Origin: Pelagophyceae sp. CCMP2097
Lineage: Eukaryota > Sar > Pelagophyceae
Length of the DNA stretch: 14,748 bases
Assembly (NCBI GenBank): GCA_026770575.1
Contig: MU658051.1
Location: forward strand, 1-14,748
Direction of reading: 5' to 3'
Shown piece after piece: positions 3,147 to 14,748 of this stretch; position 1 is the first letter of the stretch, and the number at the start of each line of letters is the position of its first letter. Made by a program: the position numbers and the translations under genes. A model generated the notes under the pieces. It was not told where the DNA came from. It did no database searches and saw only the letters and a program-made list of their open reading frames with translations.

Positions 3147-6100
3147 ATGCGCTCCCAGCGGCCCGCGGCGTCGAAGACGGGTGCGTGGTGCAGCCGTCGC
3201 TGCATGCCGCAAATGCCTCGCAGCGCCAGAGGCCGGGACCCGACGTGCCGACAGACCGGCCGCCCGCAGGCCTGCTCTTCGTCGCGCTCGTCGCGCTGGG
3301 CCTTGCGCTGACGGCGTACAGCAGCACGATGCTGGTGCACGCCGGCCGCGGTGGCGGCGCCGGGTGTCGGCGCGGACGCGGGCGGCCGCCTCGTAGGTCC
3401 GCGGCTCCGCGGCGCGCGCCGCCCGCGACGGCGAGCTCGCGACCGCGCTCGCGCGCGCGGCACGCGCCGAGGCCCTCGTATCCTACCGGCGTCTGCGAAT
3501 GATCCGTCGCGGGGACTTACCGTCGACGCCGGCAAGGCGCCGCAGAGGCGAAGCCGCGCAGGCCACCGACGCGCTCGCAGTCGCCAAGGCGCGCGCCGTC
3601 CAACTCGCCGCGCTCACGGTGCGCCCCCCCCCCCGCGCGCGCGCGCGCGCGAGACGGCGCGCCGGAATGCGGGCGGCGACGCGCGAGCGAGCAGGCCCGC
3701 GCCGCCGTCGAAGGGCTTGCGGCGGCTGACGCGCTCGCGGCGGCCGACGCGCGCGCGGCGGACGCGGACGCGGCTGCGGCGCAGGCGGACGTGGCTGCGG
3801 CGCAGGCGGAGGCGCGCGAAGTGGTGGCGGCGCGCACGGCCACGGCGCGCGAGGCGGCGCAGGCGAGTGTCGCAGCCACCTGCGAGTCCGGGCCGCGCGC
3901 CGAGTTCCATGCGCGCGCTGCTCGAAACATCGCGCGCGGCGCGCACCGGCACTCGACGCCGCTCTAGGCCGCCGCCGCGGCGCGGGCCGCGACGGCCGCG
4001 GCGGCAACGGTTAAGGCGGTGCTCGCGACGCGCACTCACGAGGCCGACGCCGCCGCGGCGTCGGGCGCGACGGCGGCCGCCGCGTCTGCGGCGGCGGCCG
4101 CCGAGGCGGCGCGCGCTGAAACGGCGCGCGCCCTCGACGCCGAGGCGGCGCTCGCACAAAAGGTGCGCATCGCGGCCGTCGAGGCGGCGCGTGCGGCCGA
4201 GGCGACCCTCTCGGCCATGGATCTGTCGGCGATGTCAGACGCCGAGCTCGAGGGTCTGTCCGATGAGATGCTCTCCGAGGCCGCCCTCGCCGCCATCTCC
4301 GATGAGGCCCTGGCCGACGAGGCACGCGCCGCCGAGGACGCCGCGGACGAGGCGCTGGAGCGCGCCGCGGACGAGGCGGCGGAGCGTGCCGCCGACGCGG
4401 CGGCGGAGGGCACCGCCGAGGACGTGACAGAGGCACTCCGCGAAGCCGAGGCGCGTGGCACCGACGCCGACAAGGCTTTTCGGGCCGGCGCCGAGGCCGC
4501 GGCGCTCCGCAAAGCCGAGGCCGCGGCAGAGGCGCTGCGGGCCGCGGCGGTCCACAGAGCTGAGGCCGTGGCGCTCCACGAAACCGAGGCCGCGGCGTTG
4601 CGCGAAGCCGAGGCCGCGGCGCTGCGCGCGAAGATGGCGTCGGACGTCGCCGCCGTGCGCCAGATCCTCCGGAGCCCCGCCGACGTAGACGCCGCCGCGG
4701 CGAGCGCCGCGGCGCCGCCGCTCGCCGCGCCGGCGGCGGCGCTGGTGGTGTGCTACTCGCACGAGGGCCACGTCGGCGGCGGCCGCGTCTGCGTCGAGCC
4801 GGAGCTGCAGTACACCAAGCCGACCAAGGTGCACCGGCGAGGTGTTTTGGGGTCCCCTGTGATGCTTGCCGGTAGGTGTTTTGGGCGCCGCCGGACGCTG
4901 CAAACAAGGGTTGGCGATTCCAGCACCTCTTCCGCATGGGCCTCGACCAGCACCCCGCCGTCGAGCAGACGGACTCTATGGTGGCGCCCGCGCCCGACGG
5001 GCCAAAGGCAAACGAGCCACGACGGGCGACGACGCGGGGTCGACAGAGGCGCGCGCGGCAAGAGTCGCGAGAGATGTCGCGGCCGGCGCGCGCTCGCGTG
5101 CTTTCAAAGGAGCGCCTGGTCGCATACCGTCCCCGCGTGCCTCCACCGAGTCGTCGACGCGTCGTGCTGTCGTAGAGTCGTAGGAATTCCTGCAGTCGTA
5201 CCGTCGTGCCCCGTAGAAAGAGTCGGCGCTCATCATGTACCTCCCGACGTCGACGCACGTGCCGCCGTTTGCGGCGCTGGGCGCGTCGCCGAGCAAGGTC
5301 GTCGTCGTTCACGAGAGCGACAACGCCGGGTACTACCCGCTCGTCAGCAAGGACTACTACCTCATCTACCTGCGCGCGCCCGCGCCCGATGCTCCTGCGG
5401 GTCGGCAAACGCGAGACAAAACACGAACACGCGACGCCGTGATTACAAAAGCCGGGACAGGGCGCCGTGGTGTCGGTCGTCCGCGGCCCAGCGCTTCCGT
5501 CTCCGCCTTTGGCCGCAGGCTCACGCCGCCCGTTTCTAGGAAGCGATCCTGGGTGACCAAGGCCGACGGCGCATACACGGGCACGGGCCGCCGCTACGCG
5601 CGCGACTACTACCCGATTGCGTACAGCGTGTCAGATCAGTACTTTGACGCGGGGAAGATGGCCTCCGTCGAGCGCACGCTCGCAGTCGTCTGCGAACATC
5701 CGCGCCGTTCGAAGTCGGCGGAAAAGGCACTTTCGAAGCGAAAGGCGGGACGACGGGAGTTTGGAGCGGCTTTTATAGAGGCTCTTCCCTCGAGCCGGGA
5801 GAAGCGTGGCGCGCCAGAAGGAGGCAGACGCGGCGCAGTATGCGTCGCTCCGGGGTGGCTTTTCAGACGCACGAGTTTGCCTTTCACGTTTTGTCGCCAG
5901 GTTCGAACCGGCCGACGGCGAAGCAGCCGACGCGGTCGCGCGTCGTCTCGTGGGTCGCCAAATACCTCGACGAGCACAAGGCGCTCAGGGGCGTCGCCGG
6001 CGAGGTGAACCACGCCGGGCGGCGCGAGATCAACGACAAGTACTTTGACACCATGCGCGCCGCGAGGATCGCGCGGGACCCGCGTCGTATTGGCGCCGAG

Positions 6101-6482
6101 GGAGCAAGGGCGGACGAGGCGGCGCCCGCTTCGCCCGCGCGGGCCCTCCGGCGTGATGCCGCGTCTGCAGGTGGTGACGTGCAACCCGTCGCACTGGGAA
6201 GGCGACTTCCGTACTTTCGAGGCGCTGGCGTCGGGCGCGCTCGTCTTCGTCGACGAGATGTACGCGCCGCACCCGAAGCCGTTCAAGGACGGCGTGCACG
6301 TAATCGTCTACGACAATTCCGACGAGGAGGCGTTTGCGGCCAAGCTCGACTACTACGTCCACCACCCGAAAGAGGCCCAGCTCATCGCCGCGCAGGGGCT
6401 CCGGCACGCACTGCGTTACCACCGCGCCGTCTCGCGCATGGACTTCATCCTGCGGTCCGCGCACGAGGTGACGCTCCTCAAC
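3147..6482 (+). CDS. Type II membrane coiled-coil protein with CgeB/GT1-like glycosyltransferase domain
   Basis: This is a predicted Golgi-type glycosyltransferase; sugar and acceptor are unknown. Proposed exons: 3147-3180, 3255-3334, 3397-3618, 3695 to about 3868, 3968-4828, 4909-4980, 5217-5371, 5540-5706, 5901-6070 and 6171 to about 6482. ATG 3147 gives a short basic tail, then a signal-anchor helix (AGLLFVALVALGLALTAYSS). Exons 3-5 encode an Ala/Glu/Arg-rich coiled coil of several hundred residues. The catalytic part begins near GWRFQHLFRMGLDQ. It includes VVVVHESDNAGYYPL, a YLIYLKRSWVTKADG join, VSWVAKYLDEH, GEVNHAGRREINDKYFDTM and the donor-site motif NPSHWEGDFRTFEALASG, followed by VIVYDNSDEEAF as in Glyco_trans_1_2 (CgeB-like) proteins. 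Introns 5372-5539 and 6071-6170 need GC donors. The 3869-3967 splice is the least certain. Confidence 0.7.
3624..3650. repeat. C-run plus (CG)n microsatellite in an intron
   Basis: A run of 11 C followed by alternating CG lies inside the proposed intron 3619-3694. It is a slippage-prone tract and potentially Z-DNA forming. Its position between two coiled-coil exons in different frames supports that intron. Confidence 0.85.
4840..4885 (+). repeat. 12-bp direct repeat inside intron 4829-4908
   Basis: AGGTGTTTTGGG occurs exactly at 4840-4851 and 4874-4885, offset 34 bp, in the intron before the glycosyltransferase domain. Each copy contains a possible GT donor, and the second is preceded by TAGG. 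It may be a footprint of a small insertion or a pair of alternative donors. Confidence 0.7.
5707..5907 (+). repeat. Intron flanked by GTTCGAA direct repeat
   Basis: The proposed intron 5707-5900 starts with GTTCGAA, and the next exon starts with the same seven bases at 5901-5907. The repeat offset of 194 bp equals the intron length. Splicing here joins VCEHPR to RSNRPTAKQPTRSRVVSWV in phase. The pattern is what an inserted intron with a target-site duplication would leave, although seven bases alone could be chance. Confidence 0.55.
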
Positions 6483-6556
6483 GCCGGTGCGAACTTGCTC
6501 CCGCGCTCGCCTCGACGACTGATCGAGTCCGCGACCACGAAACAGGGACGCCGCAG

Positions 6557-6941
6557 TCGCTCATCCCGTACACGCACACCGCGCGGCAGATCGTGCGTGC
6601 GCGCGCCGCGAAGGGTGGCGCCTTTGGACGAACGGCTCGATCGCCTTTGGACGCACCTCTTGTCGTCCTCGGACGACGGCGCTCACAGGTCATGGACGTC
6701 AACGCGACGACGCAGACGTTTCCTATCGTCGACATTGCGTCTGCGGCGATGAACCGGGAACATGTAGACGCGAAGCTCAACGTCGGTGAGCAGAGGCCGC
6801 GCGTTTCCCGCCGGCGGCGCCCCTGGCGCGCGCGGCCACGCCGAGTCGCTAGGCCGCGCGAAGCACCCGCCGCGCATGTCGGACAAGGCGCGCGACGAGC
6901 TCAACAAGCACAACCTCCTGCTCCGGAGGGACGCGGAAGAG
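6557..6941 (+). CDS. C-terminal exons of the glycosyltransferase gene, or a small separate gene
   Basis: Three short coding blocks are seen. 6557 to about 6607 reads SLIPYTHTARQIVRARA. 6689-6785 reads VMDVNATTQTFPIVDIASA and continues to DAKLN. 6853-6941 reads RAKHPPRMSDKARDELNK to RRDAEE. The join 6785/6853 uses a strong GTGAGC donor and a CTAG acceptor with matching phase. The first block would attach to the preceding exon at about 6482 with a GC donor. An ATG at 6692 could instead start an independent protein. No domain is recognised. The true stop codon is not resolved: the frame stays open past 6942, where a GTAGCC donor is possible. Confidence 0.45.
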
Positions 6942-7241: not shown

Positions 7242-10200
7242 TTACTCTTCGGCGTCGGCGTCGTCGTCATTTTCGTCATCGGAGCCGTCATCGGAGCCGT
7301 CGTTTTCATTGTCGTCGTCGGAGCCGTCGTCGTCGTTGTCGTCATCTTCTTCGTCGTCCTCTTCGTCGTCGCTATCGTCGGCGGCGGCCGATAGCGGCGC
7401 ATTTGCGGCGGCGCTTTCGTCCCTGCGCGACGTGCGCTCCGCGCGGCTGCTCCGCGGCACCATGGGCGGCAAATCGTCGTAGCGGTCCGTGGAGAAGTTG
7501 TAGCGGTCGACGAACCTAGAGCGGTTGGAGGGTCGTCGGTGTCCATCTGCTCCGTTGGACGCATGCAGGTGCCCCGAGCACCCGGGAGCGGTCGACGCAC
7601 CACGGCAGCGCGTACGTAAGGTAGATCATCGGACGCGGCTCGTTCGACCGGTTCGCGAGGCCTAGGACGCGGCGTTCCAGAGGCACGCTGGAGCCGCAAA
7701 GGGAAAAAGGCGGCGCCCCACCAGCGGAATTTCGTCTCCGGTACGCACCTCGATGTTTGAGTCGCCAGTCGAAGATGATGGCGTCTCCCTTTTTCGCGTC
7801 GAGGACGAGGGGCCGCGACCTGGCGTGCCAGTCCAAATGCGTCTCCGGCATGAACTCGGTGGCGCCGTTGTGCGCCGTCACGTCGACGAGCGGCAAAAAC
7901 ACATTGAGCGCGTGCCTAAAACGGCGCGTTTGAAAGGCAGTCGGAAGCTTTTGCGTCGGCAGTGTGCCCTCTGGCATGCAACTCAAAGCTCTGCACCGTC
8001 CTCTGCTCCGGTCCGCGTCGTCGCCGCGACGCTGCGAGCCGTACGGCTTGAGCTGGAGGGCGTCGTGAACGTGGTCGCCGTCGGAGTGCCACCGCTGCGC
8101 GATGCTGCCCGGAAGTGCGAGTATGACGCCCATGTGGCACAAGCGCGCCGACGGGCCGAGGACGGCGCGGACCAGCGGCAGCCACGCCGATTCGCCCCGC
8201 AGCGCCGCAAAGTCACTGCGGTGCAGCAGCGCGGGCACGACGGCGTCGACGCGGCCTTGGTCGCGCTGCTTAAACGTCGAAAAGCCGCCGGCCTCGAGGT
8301 CGTCCTCCTTGCCGAGCTGCGAGATTGTATAAATGACGTCATCATAAAAATTCAGCGACGCGTCACGCGCCGCGTCCACGAGCGCCGCGCTGAGCGCTCC
8401 GGGCACGCAGCAGATTCCCTGCTCCGCAAATTGCGCGCGCCGCCGCGCCGTCAGATTTTCGTCCGCTTGGGCGGACTTCAAGCGTAACGCCTTGACCGTG
8501 GCGCGGCTCGTCGCCTTGTCGTCCGCCTCGGCCTCTTCCTCGGCCTCCGCGACGTCCTCTGCGGCCTCATCGTCGTCGTCAAAGTCGGCCGCGGCGACGC
8601 AGCGACGCGCGAGGCCACGCTGGCCGTCGCGCGCCGCGGCGCCGCCGGTCTCCGCCGCCGCCGCCGCCAGCCGCGCGGAAACGCTCGCGACGTCGTGCGC
8701 CGCGTCGATGGCGGCGAGCGCGGCGATGGCGGGTCGCGACGTGGTCCGGAGCGGTTCGGCCTCTGCGAGGTCGGCGACGGCGAGGAGCCGCGAGCCGAAG
8801 ACGGACGCAAAGTGCGCCCGCGGCAACTCCAGGCACAGCGCCGCGATGCGCCGCAGGGCCGCCGCTTGGACGCGGTCCTCGACACCGCGGCTCGCGGCCG
8901 CGACCGACCGCCGCGCCGACGAAGGACGCTTCGCCTTGCCGCGCTTCGCCGCCGGCGCGTCGTCGACCGCGACGTCGGCGGCGTCGTCGCTCGGCGGCGC
9001 GTCCGCGCAGTCGACGCAGCGCCAGACGTCGCCTTTGGCCTCGAGCGTGCCCCGAGCGCATTTGTGATGGAATGCGCGCGGGCAGCGGTCGCAGGGCAAG
9101 AGCCTAGCGGCTATGATCCGACGGCGATGCATGGCGGGTCTGTCATCCGCCGCCTTGACGTCATCGCATCTCCCCGGCATCTTTCCAGCCTCGCGAGTCA
9201 TTGCCGTGCCGGGTTTCCCACTCGCCGGACGCGGGCGCGCGCCGCGTCTCAGAGTCGCCTTGCATGCCGCACCGCACGCACTCCGCCGCGTGCGACGCGG
9301 CGCAGTGCGGGCAGTGCCACACCCCCTCGGGGATACCGCGCGCCGGCGCCTTGGGCGGGCGCCCGCGGCGCCGCGGTTCGGCGGCCAGAGGCGGCGGCGC
9401 CACGTCGACGAGCGTCGCGGCCTGGTCCGGCGCGTGCGCGCCGCTGCGCTTCCGACCGCCCTTGCGCGCCTTGGAGCCTGCGCGATGGCGTCGGCACGCG
9501 GGGCCGCGGCCCTCCCACGGGCATCGGCCGCAGGGCTTCCACGGGCCTCGCCTCCGCGCGGCCACGGCGAGATCCGCTCGCACACCCCGCCGGGTGCGTC
9601 GTGGGACGCGGCGCCGCACCGCCGAGGTCGCCGGCGATATCGTTCCACGCCTAGCGTCCCAACAACGGTCCGACGGTAAAGAGGCACAAAGCTCCGGTAG
9701 GAGAGAGCGCATCCTCGGCCGCCCCCGCGGCTCTGCCGCCTTGCGTGGCTCTGGGATGCCGCGTGGACTGGGGGTTCCTTGCTTCAACGACGCCGGTCGC
9801 GCACCGAGTCATCAAAGGCCCTCGCGTCGAGGCAGGCCCGGTGGAAGGCGCGCGGGCACGTCGCGCACGCGCGCACCGCGCCGAAGCCGCCGCAAGTGCC
9901 GCACGCGGCGTCGCAGTAGTCGGACCGCGCGACGGCGCGCGACGGCGCCAGCCTATCAAAGCGCTCGACAAGGCCTCGAGAAACAGCGAGGGCGGTTCGG
10001 ACCGCGAGTGCTCATGCGGTGACGTGGACATCGAGTCTCGGAAGTCGACGACTCACGCGTGTGCTCGGAAGACCCACTCGCGCTCGTCCTCGGCGCCCGC
10101 AGTCGTCGCGGTCCAGAATGCGGAAAGCGACTGCGGCGCGCGCGGCACGCGCGGCTGCGCGCGCGCGGCGGCGGCCGCGGAGGGCGGCCGGCCGCGGCGT

Positions 10201-10352
10201 CGCGGCGCCTTCGAGGCCTTGGTCGTCTTCTTGGCCGCCTTGGCAGCCTTGGCCTTGGTCGGCGCCGCCGTGGCCCTGATCGCCTTCTTCGGCCGCTTCG
10301 CCGGCGGCGCGTAGCGCTCCGTCGACTTGCGCGCCCGCGGAGCGCGCTCCAT
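7242..10352 (-). CDS. AT-hook / PHD finger / PhyH-type 2-oxoglutarate dioxygenase fusion, eight exons
   Basis: This is a predicted nuclear Fe(II)/2OG oxygenase with chromatin-reading modules. Exons on the minus strand: 10352-10057, 9952-9805, 9650-9566, 9477-9259, 9110-8045, 7915-7749, 7661-7601 and 7515-7242; all phases agree (771 residues). Order: Lys/Arg-rich N-terminus with AT-hook RRRGRPPS (about 51-58). PHD1 has C116/C119, C128/C131, H136/C139 and C232/C235 around an insert carrying a second AT-hook (RRRGRPPK). PHD2 is C243-x2-C, C256-x2-C, H264-x2-C, C281-x2-C. An acidic linker follows. The PhyH domain has HxD at H591/D593 (WHSDGD), distal H659 and R670, then NRSNEPRPMIYLTYA. A 50-residue Asp/Glu tail ends the protein. 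The H-to-R spacing of 11 equals that of human PHYH. Six introns are GT-AG; 9258-9111 is GC-AG and splits PHD2. The substrate is unknown; exons 2-4 are least sure. Confidence 0.85.
7245..7392 (-). repeat. Asp/Glu/Ser-codon microsatellite (acidic tail)
   Basis: On the plus strand this is a run of TCG, TCA and TCC triplets. On the minus strand it encodes the Asp/Glu-dominated C-terminal tail of the PhyH gene, ending DADAEE and stop TAA at 7244-7242. Such tails often bind histones or basic proteins. The frame is maintained to the stop. Confidence 0.85.
7502..7601 (-). repeat. 15-bp direct repeat exactly one intron length apart
   Basis: On the plus strand 7502-7516 and 7587-7601 match at 14 of 15 bases (AGCGGTCGACG, one mismatch, then ACC). 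The offset is 85 bp, precisely the length of the PhyH-gene intron 7600-7516. One copy lies at the start of the intron and the other begins the next exon (FVDRYNF), so splicing leaves a single copy. This is a target-site-duplication or segmental-duplication signature of intron gain. Confidence 0.85.
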
Positions 10353-11856: not shown

Positions 11857-11879
11857 GTAAGAGATGCAAAATTTCTATC

Positions 11880-12249
11880 TTGCTTGCTTAAGATCCACCC
11901 TGGGTGGGGCTGGCCCAATATCTTAGCTCAGGGGTTAAAACGCACTCTCTCGGAGGAAAGGACCCAGGCCATGCCTGGGCCGCGACGCGGTACATCCACA
12001 TTCCGGCTGCGCGCGACTATACCCTCGACGCCATCGCCCCCCATAAGGCTTCCCCAGCGACGCGCCCAAAGAGCCAGAGTGCTTGGTGCCCATACTCGCA
12101 CGAGGAGGTCGCGCGGCATCACTGTCGCGAGAACGGCCTCCGCAGGCATGTCATCCGGGCATTTTTGCTCGGGTGTCTGACTTTGTCACCGCTTAGACGG
12201 GCATAACCTCTTGGGCCAGCCCCACCCAGGGTGGATCTTAAGCAAGCAA
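11880..12249. mobile_element. Perfect 39-bp inverted repeat around a 292-bp spacer
   Basis: 11880-11918 and 12211-12249 are exact reverse complements over 39 bp (starts TTGCTTGCTTAAGATCC). The 370-bp unit resembles a MITE-like element or a foldback. TTAA lies eight bases inside each end, but no clear target-site duplication is seen outside the arms. The spacer holds a 7-bp-stem hairpin at 11963-11979. It also holds an open frame, 11904-12206 without its own ATG, whose middle reads RYIHIPAARDYTLDAIAPHK and then WCPYSHEEVARHHC; this looks protein-like but matches no family I know. Confidence 0.75.
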
Positions 12250-12301
12250 CACAGCGCACGCACTTGCGATTGCGTCGCGGAGGACCCGTGTGGAGAATAC
12301 C

Positions 12302-12481: not shown

Positions 12482-12583
12482 CCCGTCGCACGACTCGTGA
12501 CGGGCGACGACGGCGGCGTCGCGAGTACGATCGGCGAAGCGAACGCGTACGTCGTCGCGGACTACAAGGACGAAGGAGGCGCG

Positions 12584-14533
12584 ATGATTCCCTTCGTGCC
12601 GAACGCCGTCGAGGACGCAGACGGCCTTTCGCCAGATGCGGCGCTCGTCTTCGCGCTGCTTATCGCCGAGCAGCAGGGTGTGGCGGCCATGGCTTTAGCG
12701 GCCGTCGCGGACACGATGCCGGGGAGGGCCAGCAAAGGTTACGCGGCCTTGCTGCAGGGCCAGGAAAAGATCTCGGACAAGGCGGCGCTGCTCAAGATCA
12801 CGTACTTTCTCGGGACTCAGCACGGCGGTGTGGGGGGCCCGAATTATAGCTTTGTCGGCTCGCCGGCCTCCGCCAAAGAATTCGTCAAGCGACTGGCAGC
12901 GTACGTCCGGCACCTGGCGAACAACGAGACGCGCACGGCCTCGACAGTGCTGCCCGCGAGGTCGGCGTCGTCCGATATCTCCGAACTCGTTAATGCTTAC
13001 TCGCGGAGCCACGGCCTCGACTCGCACAACCTCACGGCGGAAGACGCGAAGAAGTTCGTCGACTTCGCGACAGTGCTTTGCGACGGTGGCACGCTCGACG
13101 AGCGCGAGAAGCTCCTGCGCCTGACGCTGCTGCGGAGCTCGGTGCCGAGCGGCATTGCGTACGGTGCCAAGGAAGGATATTTGGGAGACGTTGCGCAGGG
13201 CGCTGCTGCGATCACTACCACGCCTAAGGAGGCGCTGCGGTTCAACAACCGACCGGTGCAGCCCTCGAACAAGTTTCTTCTCGGGCTCGTCGCGCAGCGG
13301 TTGCCGAATTGTCCGAACAATTTTGCCAAGAGCCTCGTGGAGCTCTTGCCGGGCTCTCTCGATGACTCGGGCCGGTTCAAGTTCAACGACTTCCCGGAGG
13401 GCGGCAACACCACGGCCATCAGCAGCTTGGCGGCATCGTTTGAGGACATCGCCAAGCGCATCCCGGGTCTCCTCGACGGCTGCGACGAACTCCTTAGGAA
13501 GACGGGGGAAATCGTCACAAACGGCAACGGCGACCTTTGCGCAAAGGAGGAGCTCCTGCGTTTTGGGCGGACGCTCCACGCTCACCTCAAGCGCCTCGGT
13601 AGCGCAAAGTACACGGGCACCATGGCCAAACACGGCCCGTTCGAGCAGAAGCTCCAGGACGAGGCCGTGCACGCGGCCGAGCCGGCAATGCAGGCGGCGG
13701 TGCTGGCGCTCGTCAAGAGGACGGCGTCGGCGACGGCCGGCAAGGACGAGCAGACGATGGACGCGTACGCGCTGAAGAGACTCAAGCAGGAGATCACGGC
13801 GGAGGTCCGGCGCGACTTCGGATCGGCGCGCAAATTCGGGTCGGCTAAGCGGAAGCGCGACGGCGGCGGCGCTGGCGGCGGCTCTTTGCAGCGCGACGGC
13901 GGCGGCGCTGGAGACGGCTTTTTGCAGCGCAACGGCGGCGGCGCTGGCGACGGCTCCTGGCAGTACGACGGCGGCGGCTCTCGAGCAGAGATGGTGTGCG
14001 TCAGCTGCTTCAAGCCGCCCTCCCACCGAGCCCGCGACTGCCCGAACCGCCGCGAGCCGATGACCGCGGCGCCCAAAAACCTCAGCCCGTTCCTCCTCGG
14101 CCTCGCACAGCGGCTTCGTGACTCACCCGAGACCACGGAGGCACGGAGCCGGTCGATGACGCCGACAGCTTTCCGCGGCTGGGCCAAGCTGCGGCGGCGC
14201 GCCTCTCGCGACGAGAGGGCGTTCTGCTTTGCGGCAGCCCGACGACGAGGAGCACGACACGGGTCGTGCAAAACGGACCAAAATGCCTCACGGAGACCGA
14301 AATCCGTCGGCGCGAGGTGCGTCGGCGGTGCGCGTTGGGAAAGCCCCGGCCCGCGACCGAAATCCGTCGGCGCGGGGTGCGTTGGTGGCGGCCGTCGACT
14401 TGGAAAGTCGACAAGCGTCTGCAAACGGAGGAAGGGGGAGCATCGCAGCTTCAGCCGGCTTCAGCCGACTCCAGCCGGCTGCGACCGGCTGTGGCCGGTT
14501 GCGGCAGGCTGCGGCCGGCTTCGTCCAAGTTGA
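12584..14533 (+). CDS. Gag-like protein with CCHC zinc knuckle
   Basis: The frame is open from 12482; the first ATG is at 12584 (MIPFVPNAVEDADG). About 450 residues of mixed helical sequence are followed by a basic GSARKFGSAKRKRDGGG stretch and a Gly-rich 12-residue repeat. A zinc knuckle at 13997-14041 reads CVSCFKPPSHRARDC, that is C-x2-C-x5-H-x4-C, one residue longer than the retroviral CX2CX4HX4C. Capsid-like region, basic linker and one knuckle suggest a retrotransposon Gag that packages RNA. A host RNA-binding protein remains possible because no protease, integrase or reverse transcriptase lies in the window. The last 80-90 residues are encoded by tandem-repeat DNA and may not be original. 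Confidence 0.6.
   Translation: MIPFVPNAVEDADGLSPDAALVFALLIAEQQGVAAMALAAVADTMPGRASKGYAALLQGQEKISDKAALLKITYFLGTQHGGVGGPNYSFVGSPASAKEFVKRLAAYVRHLANNETRTASTVLPARSASSDISELVNAYSRSHGLDSHNLTAEDAKKFVDFATVLCDGGTLDEREKLLRLTLLRSSVPSGIAYGAKEGYLGDVAQGAAAITTTPKEALRFNNRPVQPSNKFLLGLVAQRLPNCPNNFAKSLVELLPGSLDDSGRFKFNDFPEGGNTTAISSLAASFEDIAKRIPGLLDGCDELLRKTGEIVTNGNGDLCAKEELLRFGRTLHAHLKRLGSAKYTGTMAKHGPFEQKLQDEAVHAAEPAMQAAVLALVKRTASATAGKDEQTMDAYALKRLKQEITAEVRRDFGSARKFGSAKRKRDGGGAGGGSLQRDGGGAGDGFLQRNGGGAGDGSWQYDGGGSRAEMVCVSCFKPPSHRARDCPNRREPMTAAPKNLSPFLLGLAQRLRDSPETTEARSRSMTPTAFRGWAKLRRRASRDERAFCFAAARRRGARHGSCKTDQNASRRPKSVGARCVGGARWESPGPRPKSVGAGCVGGGRRLGKSTSVCKRRKGEHRSFSRLQPTPAGCDRLWPVAAGCGRLRPS
13856..13981 (+). 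repeat. 36-bp coding tandem repeat (Gly-rich 12-mer)
   Basis: Three full units at 13856, 13892 and 13928 and a partial fourth encode (R/Y)(D/N)GGGAG(G/D)G(S/F)(L/W)Q. The unit lies just before the zinc knuckle and keeps the frame, like a flexible RNA-binding linker. Confidence 0.9.
14295..14383 (+). repeat. 60-bp tandem duplication in the C-terminal part of the gag-like ORF
   Basis: GACCGAAATCCGTCGGCGCG occurs at 14295 and again at 14355, each followed by (A/G)GTGCGT. The translation repeats RPKSVGA(R/G)CVGG. It leads directly into the longer satellite that starts at 14384. Confidence 0.85.
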
Positions 14534-14748
14534 CGTGTGTTGCGAGCTGGCGGCGGAAGTCGACTTGGAAGTCGACACGCGTTATGGGTTGGTGGCGGCC
14601 GTCGACTTGAAAGTCGACGCGCGTCTGCAAACGGAGCAATGGGGAGCATCGCAGCTTTAGCCGGCTCCAACCGGCTACAGCCGGCCTTGACCGGCTGTGG
14701 CCGGCAGCGGCCTGCTTCGGCCGGCGACGTCCAAGTTGACGCGTGTTG
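14384..14748. repeat. About 207-bp satellite array, continues past window end
   Basis: GGTGGCGGCCGTCGACTT starts copies at 14384 and 14591, and GTCCAAGTTGACG-type ends recur at about 14522 and 14729 with the same spacing. Each copy contains GCAAACGGAG, GGGGAGCATCGCAGCTT, a block of CCGGCTNNNG-like decamers, and GTCGACTT/AAGTCGAC palindromes (14394-14412, 14559-14576, 14601-14618). The second copy is cut by the window edge. There is no sign of a gene beyond 14533. Confidence 0.85.

Follow-up and report, generated by a model that had tools for sequence, protein, structure and literature searches.

A pelagophyte gene joining tandem PHD fingers to a PhyH-type oxygenase domain, with a putative role on chromatin

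Gene structure and domain content

The window analysed here is the whole stretch of 14,748 nucleotides of contig MU658051.1 from the single-celled marine alga Pelagophyceae sp. CCMP2097, and the gene in question, which we call the PHD-PhyH gene, lies on its minus strand from 10352 to 7242. Eight exons are spliced into a frame of 763 amino acids (aa) with no internal stop. In this model all seven introns are of the GT...AG type; their phases agree, as the initial annotation had stated. The product joins PHD fingers to a PhyH-type Fe(II)/2-oxoglutarate (2OG) oxygenase domain in one protein; iron-dependent oxygenases of this kind mostly belong to metabolism. It is one open gene with a conserved architecture and an intact ligand set.

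Exon 1 (10057-10352) encodes the stretch PPAKRPKK (aa 16-23), which resembles a nuclear localization signal (NLS), the first AT-hook and most of a conserved EWVFRAHA motif. The first six zinc ligands of PHD1 are in exon 2 (9805-9952), and exon 3 (9620-9650), of only 31 nucleotides, falls within the long PHD1 insert and holds a conserved DLG motif. Exon 4 extends over 9222-9477 if intron 4 uses a GT donor at 9221. The seven residues which this donor adds at the junction of exons 4 and 5 are absent from all ten relatives described below, and a GC donor at 9242 yields exactly the length of the relatives with an open frame of 756 aa; exon 4 thus probably ends at 9243. PHD2 and the open frame are intact with either donor (763 or 756 aa). 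Exon 5 (8045-9103) carries the end of PHD2, a helical module, an acidic linker and the start of the PhyH domain, including H583 (8088-8086) and D585 (8082-8080). A conserved HALNVFLPLVD strand and the distal H651 (7755-7753) are encoded by exon 6 (7749-7915), R662 (7635-7633), the predicted 2OG-binding arginine, by exon 7 (7601-7661), and the YNFS..RY..LP and SR..R signature, the acidic tail (aa 719-763) and the stop by exon 8 (7242-7515). At the other six junctions the covering relatives align across without an inserted stretch, with short length differences near junctions 2/3 and 3/4.

Two adjacent genes, one for a PHD protein and one for a PhyH protein, might have been wrongly spliced together in this model. 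The public model M885DRAFT_330376 (P0054; 174 aa) of the same alga, whose letters are found in the window, is limited to 7851-7601 and 7515-7242, only the final third of the catalytic domain, which lends this idea some support. However, it treats intron 6 as coding, which is contradicted by all nine relatives that cover that point. Exon 5 alone joins the PHD2 end, the helical module and the PhyH start in one frame, and ten relatives have the same domain order in one protein. The separate PHD and PhyH genes against which the initial annotation had wished its model to be checked are thus contradicted by exon 5 and by the relatives. Because the PHD-helical-PhyH core recurs in ten other proteins, the PHD-PhyH protein is no splicing artefact. 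We rejected the split, since the relatives align across the exon junctions, and regard it as very improbable.

The two AT-hook cores of the pattern [KR].RGRP are at aa 51-56 (10185-10202) and aa 194-199 (9356-9373), the second within the PHD1 insert between ligands 6 and 7. When aa 1-320 were shuffled with their composition kept, at least two such cores turned up once in 20,000 trials (5e-05). AT-hooks are modules that bind the minor groove of AT-rich DNA. PHD1 (aa 116-217; 9302-9903) spans introns 2 and 3 and is unusual in that 74 residues are inserted between its sixth and seventh ligands, and PHD2 (aa 225-276; 9007-9280) spans intron 4. The Pfam PHD profile scored over its cut-off in two stretches (E 7.3e-8), with aa 239-276 as the match in PHD2. 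Each finger has a full C4HC3 set of eight ligands (C116, C119, C128, C131, H136, C139, C214 and C217 in PHD1; C225, C228, C248, C251, H256, C259, C273 and C276 in PHD2). PHD2 resembles in sequence the fingers of AIRE and ZMYND8, and PHD1 of the relative P0001 those of CHD4, AIRE, ZMYND8 and PHF21A; several of these fingers bind unmodified H3K4. The helical module (aa 325-391; 8662-8862), with a conserved LC..LPR.HFASVFGSRL motif, matched nothing in Pfam, and its best PDB match was no better than E 1.1. It is followed by the acidic linker (aa 418-440; 8515-8583), which is shorter in the relatives.

Together with a conserved stretch at its C-terminal end, the oxygenase domain (aa 463-700; 7434-8448) spans introns 5 to 7, and the Pfam PhyH match (aa 469-663) has E 1.1e-15 and 59 bits against a cut-off of 22. 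Its ligands are complete: H583, D585 and H651 form the H-x-D...H iron triad and R662 is the 2OG arginine. R662 is 11 residues past H651, the same spacing as in PHYH. Neither JmjC nor Tet_JBP was listed for the protein in the Pfam search up to E 10. The two AT-hooks, two PHD fingers, acidic linker, complete PhyH domain and acidic tail of the initial annotation are therefore all present. It had also named the correct ligand residues, with numbers eight too high (H591, D593, H659 and R670).

Relatives sharing the core

A search with aa 450-710 found seven proteins among 5518 candidates, and a profile search found ten among 7996 scored candidates; for all ten the precomputed Pfam column lists both domains, PHD as well as PhyH. 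The protein search scored candidates which shared exact words with the query and had 0.55-1.75 of its length. Chrysophaeum taylorii CTAYLR_000372 (P0001) and Aureococcus anophagefferens JL721_9431 (P0007), both from pelagophytes, are among the ten, so that the search of other algae which the initial annotation had called for did find the PHD-PhyH core. The core is complete in seven relatives and damaged or cut in three. In P0007 four of the zinc ligands and a short piece of PhyH are missing, its model lacking part of PHD1 and PHD2; P0009 is cut within PHD1, ahead of the first six ligands; and P0010 diverges ahead of the distal histidine. All 16 zinc ligands are kept in eight of the ten, the exceptions being P0007 and P0009.

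The relatives which cover these regions have in common an EW.YR.HA-like motif, a PHD1 whose last two ligands follow a long insert, PHD2, the helical module with LC..LPR.HF.S..G.R., and a PhyH domain ending in PWFVD.YNFS..R...LP and R..R. Judged from these alignments, the conserved unit is PHD-PHD-helical-PhyH. The flanking parts differ: [KR].RGRP cores were found in none of the eight relatives checked, and the long acidic tail is absent from every relative. HMG boxes over the Pfam cut-off are at the N-terminus of P0002, P0004 and P0005. The N-terminal module is exchanged from one member of the family to another, being AT-hooks, HMG boxes, a weak Tudor-like stretch or, in the Aureococcus type, none. 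NLS-like basic runs were seen in eight of nine proteins checked (exception P0006), and simple peroxisomal targeting signals (PTS1 or PTS2) in none of the nine. These nine, the window protein included, come from the eleven of the family, with P0007 and P0009 left out.

No NCBIfam family scored over its cut-off for P0001, P0011, P0029 or P0045. In P0029, from Nephroselmis pyriformis, part of the helical module is present together with PhyH. The full-length model of P0001 was poor (predicted local distance difference test score, pLDDT, 52.9) and was not used for the fold search.

The catalytic domain in a wider family

The catalytic-domain search, with a reach of at most about 420 aa, found 99 proteins among 7995 scored, P0054 among them. 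The domain of P0001 is 66% identical to that of the window protein over 221 columns. A tree of the domain had 63 rows, the window protein and 62 of 109 relatives; sequences not covering model positions 60-205 were left out, as were P0004, P0007, P0024, P0046 and P0051. By sequence the domain falls into a PhyH subgroup which is mostly algal and is marked by a C-terminal signature of its own, NF...RY..LP / SR..R. The double-stranded beta-helix PhyH fold was found in the model of the relative P0011, whose domain is 63% identical, and not in a model of the window protein itself. The close relative is thus predicted to have the PhyH fold.

A scan of viral contigs with alignment A3 (P0004, P0005, P0007 and P0010 not included) produced 20 pattern matches, none of them confirmed as a relative, and the viral fold matches were general 2OG/PhyH folds of 8-21% identity. 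A scan of GTDB genomes with alignment A7, whose first sequence is P0045 and not the window protein, produced 23 pattern matches, from which a single locus was confirmed, a PhyH relative in a Polyangia bacterium (L015, 6001-6714).

PHD, PhyH and other oxygenase genes of the same alga

P0001 had 15 matches in the genome of Pelagophyceae sp. CCMP2097, and among these the PHD and PhyH parts occur together only at the window locus; one PHD-like match stands alone on contig C60. PhyH was found at 22 places. The PhyH-like loci on four contigs (C503, C3, C71 and C2), whose frames were read by eye, show no PHD in the frames listed. A different PhyH fusion was seen at L013 (592-2553, minus strand), where a PhyH-like protein has a long extra C-terminal part and, by eye, a hydrophobic N-terminal stretch. 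JmjC and AlkB-type matches were found at eight places each; the PHD-PhyH protein is therefore not the only candidate nuclear oxygenase of the genome.

Proposed function

We propose, with a probability of about 0.6, that the gene encodes a nuclear, chromatin-docked Fe(II)/2OG oxygenase that acts on a macromolecular substrate. The strongest reason to place its work on chromatin is that nuclear docking modules swap around a fixed reader-oxygenase core. From the domain content we infer a nuclear location, histone binding and DNA binding. The initial annotation had suggested such nuclear, chromatin-docked action, and the exchanged N-termini, the NLS-like runs and the lack of simple PTS patterns in the proteins checked support it, short of proof. 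The substrates it had considered (chromatin, DNA bases, RNA or something linked to histones) would also be consistent with these findings. In the proposed mechanism the N-terminus (AT-hooks here, an HMG box or Tudor-like module in relatives) would dock on DNA or a nucleosome, and together with the two tandem PHD fingers it would position the PhyH domain on chromatin. Fe(II), O2 and 2OG would be held by H583, D585, H651 and R662, and the domain might hydroxylate a nearby macromolecular group, or demethylate it via hydroxylation. If PHD-JmjC enzymes are a guide, the substrate would most likely be a side chain of a histone tail or chromatin protein, then a DNA base, then a small nuclear metabolite.

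Several observations weigh against this proposal. Some docking modules are below the Pfam cut-offs: the HMG match of P0003 (E 8e-5, 23.4 of 25.4 bits), that of P0001 (E 0.014), where the model shows three fairly confident helices, and the Tudor match of P0010 (E 0.02-0.026). P0008 has an N-terminus nearly identical to that of P0010 yet no domain match. P0006, of the A. anophagefferens type, begins just ahead of PHD1 and has neither docking module nor NLS run; P0007 also has no docking module and, by eye, the same start. The [ED]GG.L motif of the relatives' PHD1 is lost from PHD1 of the window protein, and in P0035, a PHD-like-plus-PhyH protein, the PHD match is below the Pfam cut-off (E 0.011).

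The remaining adverse points concern catalysis and bear on a second explanation, in which a small-molecule PhyH enzyme (for an acyl-CoA, an amino acid or a sugar-like compound) is tethered to chromatin for local metabolite turnover or for sensing of 2OG, O2 or iron. The nearest solved folds are natural-product enzymes, namely KanJ and fungal oxygenases. PhyH relatives without PHD in the precomputed Pfam column (neighbours in 13 rows) keep the same active-site motifs; because these neighbours share the pocket motifs, the substrate may be older than the chromatin link. Just downstream of the Polyangia PhyH gene are what look by eye like genes for methylmalonyl-CoA mutase subunits; they hint at metabolism, but this is one case and not decisive. 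All ten relatives nevertheless keep the reader-oxygenase coupling while the docking module changes, which suits a chromatin substrate better, and we consider a tethered small-molecule enzyme quite unlikely.

The protein might also be nuclear and chromatin-bound with a DNA base as its substrate, such as 5-methylcytosine or thymine, so that an unrelated catalytic family would do work like that of TET/JBP. AT-hooks and HMG boxes accompany the enzyme, and a frame of 2324 aa in the genome matches DNA cytosine methyltransferase (E 1.1e-13). For Aureococcus, heavy methylation of linker DNA is described (PMC9998398), which we count in favour of a DNA base. Tet_JBP had no match in the genome, which would fit as well, but it had none in the control genomes either, so that its absence cannot be claimed. 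On the other hand, PHD fingers and a Tudor-like N-terminus would read histones and not bases, no DNA-acting PhyH enzyme was encountered in our searches, no DNA-binding domain is recognised in P0008 or P0010, and the alga has AlkB-type genes elsewhere. A DNA-base substrate seems to us unlikely, if worth keeping in mind.

The initial annotation knew of no enzyme with this architecture. Likewise, no described protein with PHD-PhyH architecture was among the literature matches listed, from searches several of which were broad and which mostly did not extend to subscription papers. Each part is of a known kind; the joining of a PhyH oxygenase to readers of chromatin appears new. Chromatin 2OG oxygenases are usually assigned to the JmjC, TET/JBP and AlkB families, and a PhyH enzyme that is conserved and carries such readers would be a fourth catalytic family among them. 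We suggest tentatively, at somewhat less than even odds, that pelagophytes and perhaps other algae have a separate class of chromatin modifiers, in which PhyH-type 2OG oxygenases write or erase a hydroxyl-type mark, not described so far, on histone tails or DNA and are brought there by their tandem PHD fingers and by docking modules that can be exchanged. If so, the Nephroselmis helical-module-plus-PhyH unit and P0035 would be outlying members of the class. Pelagophytes include brown-tide and ocean species, and a chromatin PhyH enzyme would link the supply of 2OG, O2 and iron to their chromatin. With a conserved gene at hand, the question can be tested directly.

Other features of the window

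A Rab-GAP gene with a TBC domain (Pfam E 1.3e-29) lies at 461-2260 on the plus strand, and a glycosyltransferase-like frame (Glyco_trans_1_2, E 3.3e-16) at 6009-6749, also plus. An element of 380 bases at 11875-12254 has 51-base inverted arms, 90% complementary, and resembles a miniature inverted-repeat transposable element. The frame of 683 aa at 12482-14530 (plus) had no Pfam match; it contains repeats of 36 bases, a CCHC-like knuckle can be made out by eye, and it is perhaps a retroelement gag remnant. Satellite-like repeats of 41 and 140 bases at 14295-14748 may explain why the contig stops there. An Rfam search of the window gave no matches.

Comparison with known systems

The window protein resembles the PhyH family (PF05721, phytanoyl-CoA dioxygenase) in a domain scoring over the cut-off, the H-x-D...H motif and the arginine 11 residues past the distal histidine. 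It differs in its nuclear-type modules and its own signature (NF...RY..LP / SR..R), and the peroxisomal targeting signal expected of PHYH was not seen, nine of nine proteins being without a simple PTS1 or PTS2. KanJ, the kanamycin B dioxygenase (6s0r and the 7cl2 series), is the best solved relative by sequence and fold and shares the same fold; however, it is bacterial, was solved with aminoglycosides, and, when aligned structurally with P0011, is 26-27% identical to it.

In the TET/JBP DNA-base oxygenases a DNA-binding module is joined to an Fe/2OG oxygenase. The plan is alike, although the window protein has no Tet_JBP match. In the PHD-JmjC histone demethylases (KDM5, KDM7/PHF8) one or more PHD readers tether an Fe/2OG oxygenase to chromatin. 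Here too the plan is alike, whereas the catalytic family of the window protein is PhyH, with no JmjC match. CTAYLR_000372 and JL721_9431 are both annotated as hypothetical, the former also as PHD-type domain-containing. They share the PHD-helical-PhyH core with the window protein and differ at the N-terminus, which is HMG-like in the former and without a docking module in the latter, compared to the AT-hooks of the window protein.
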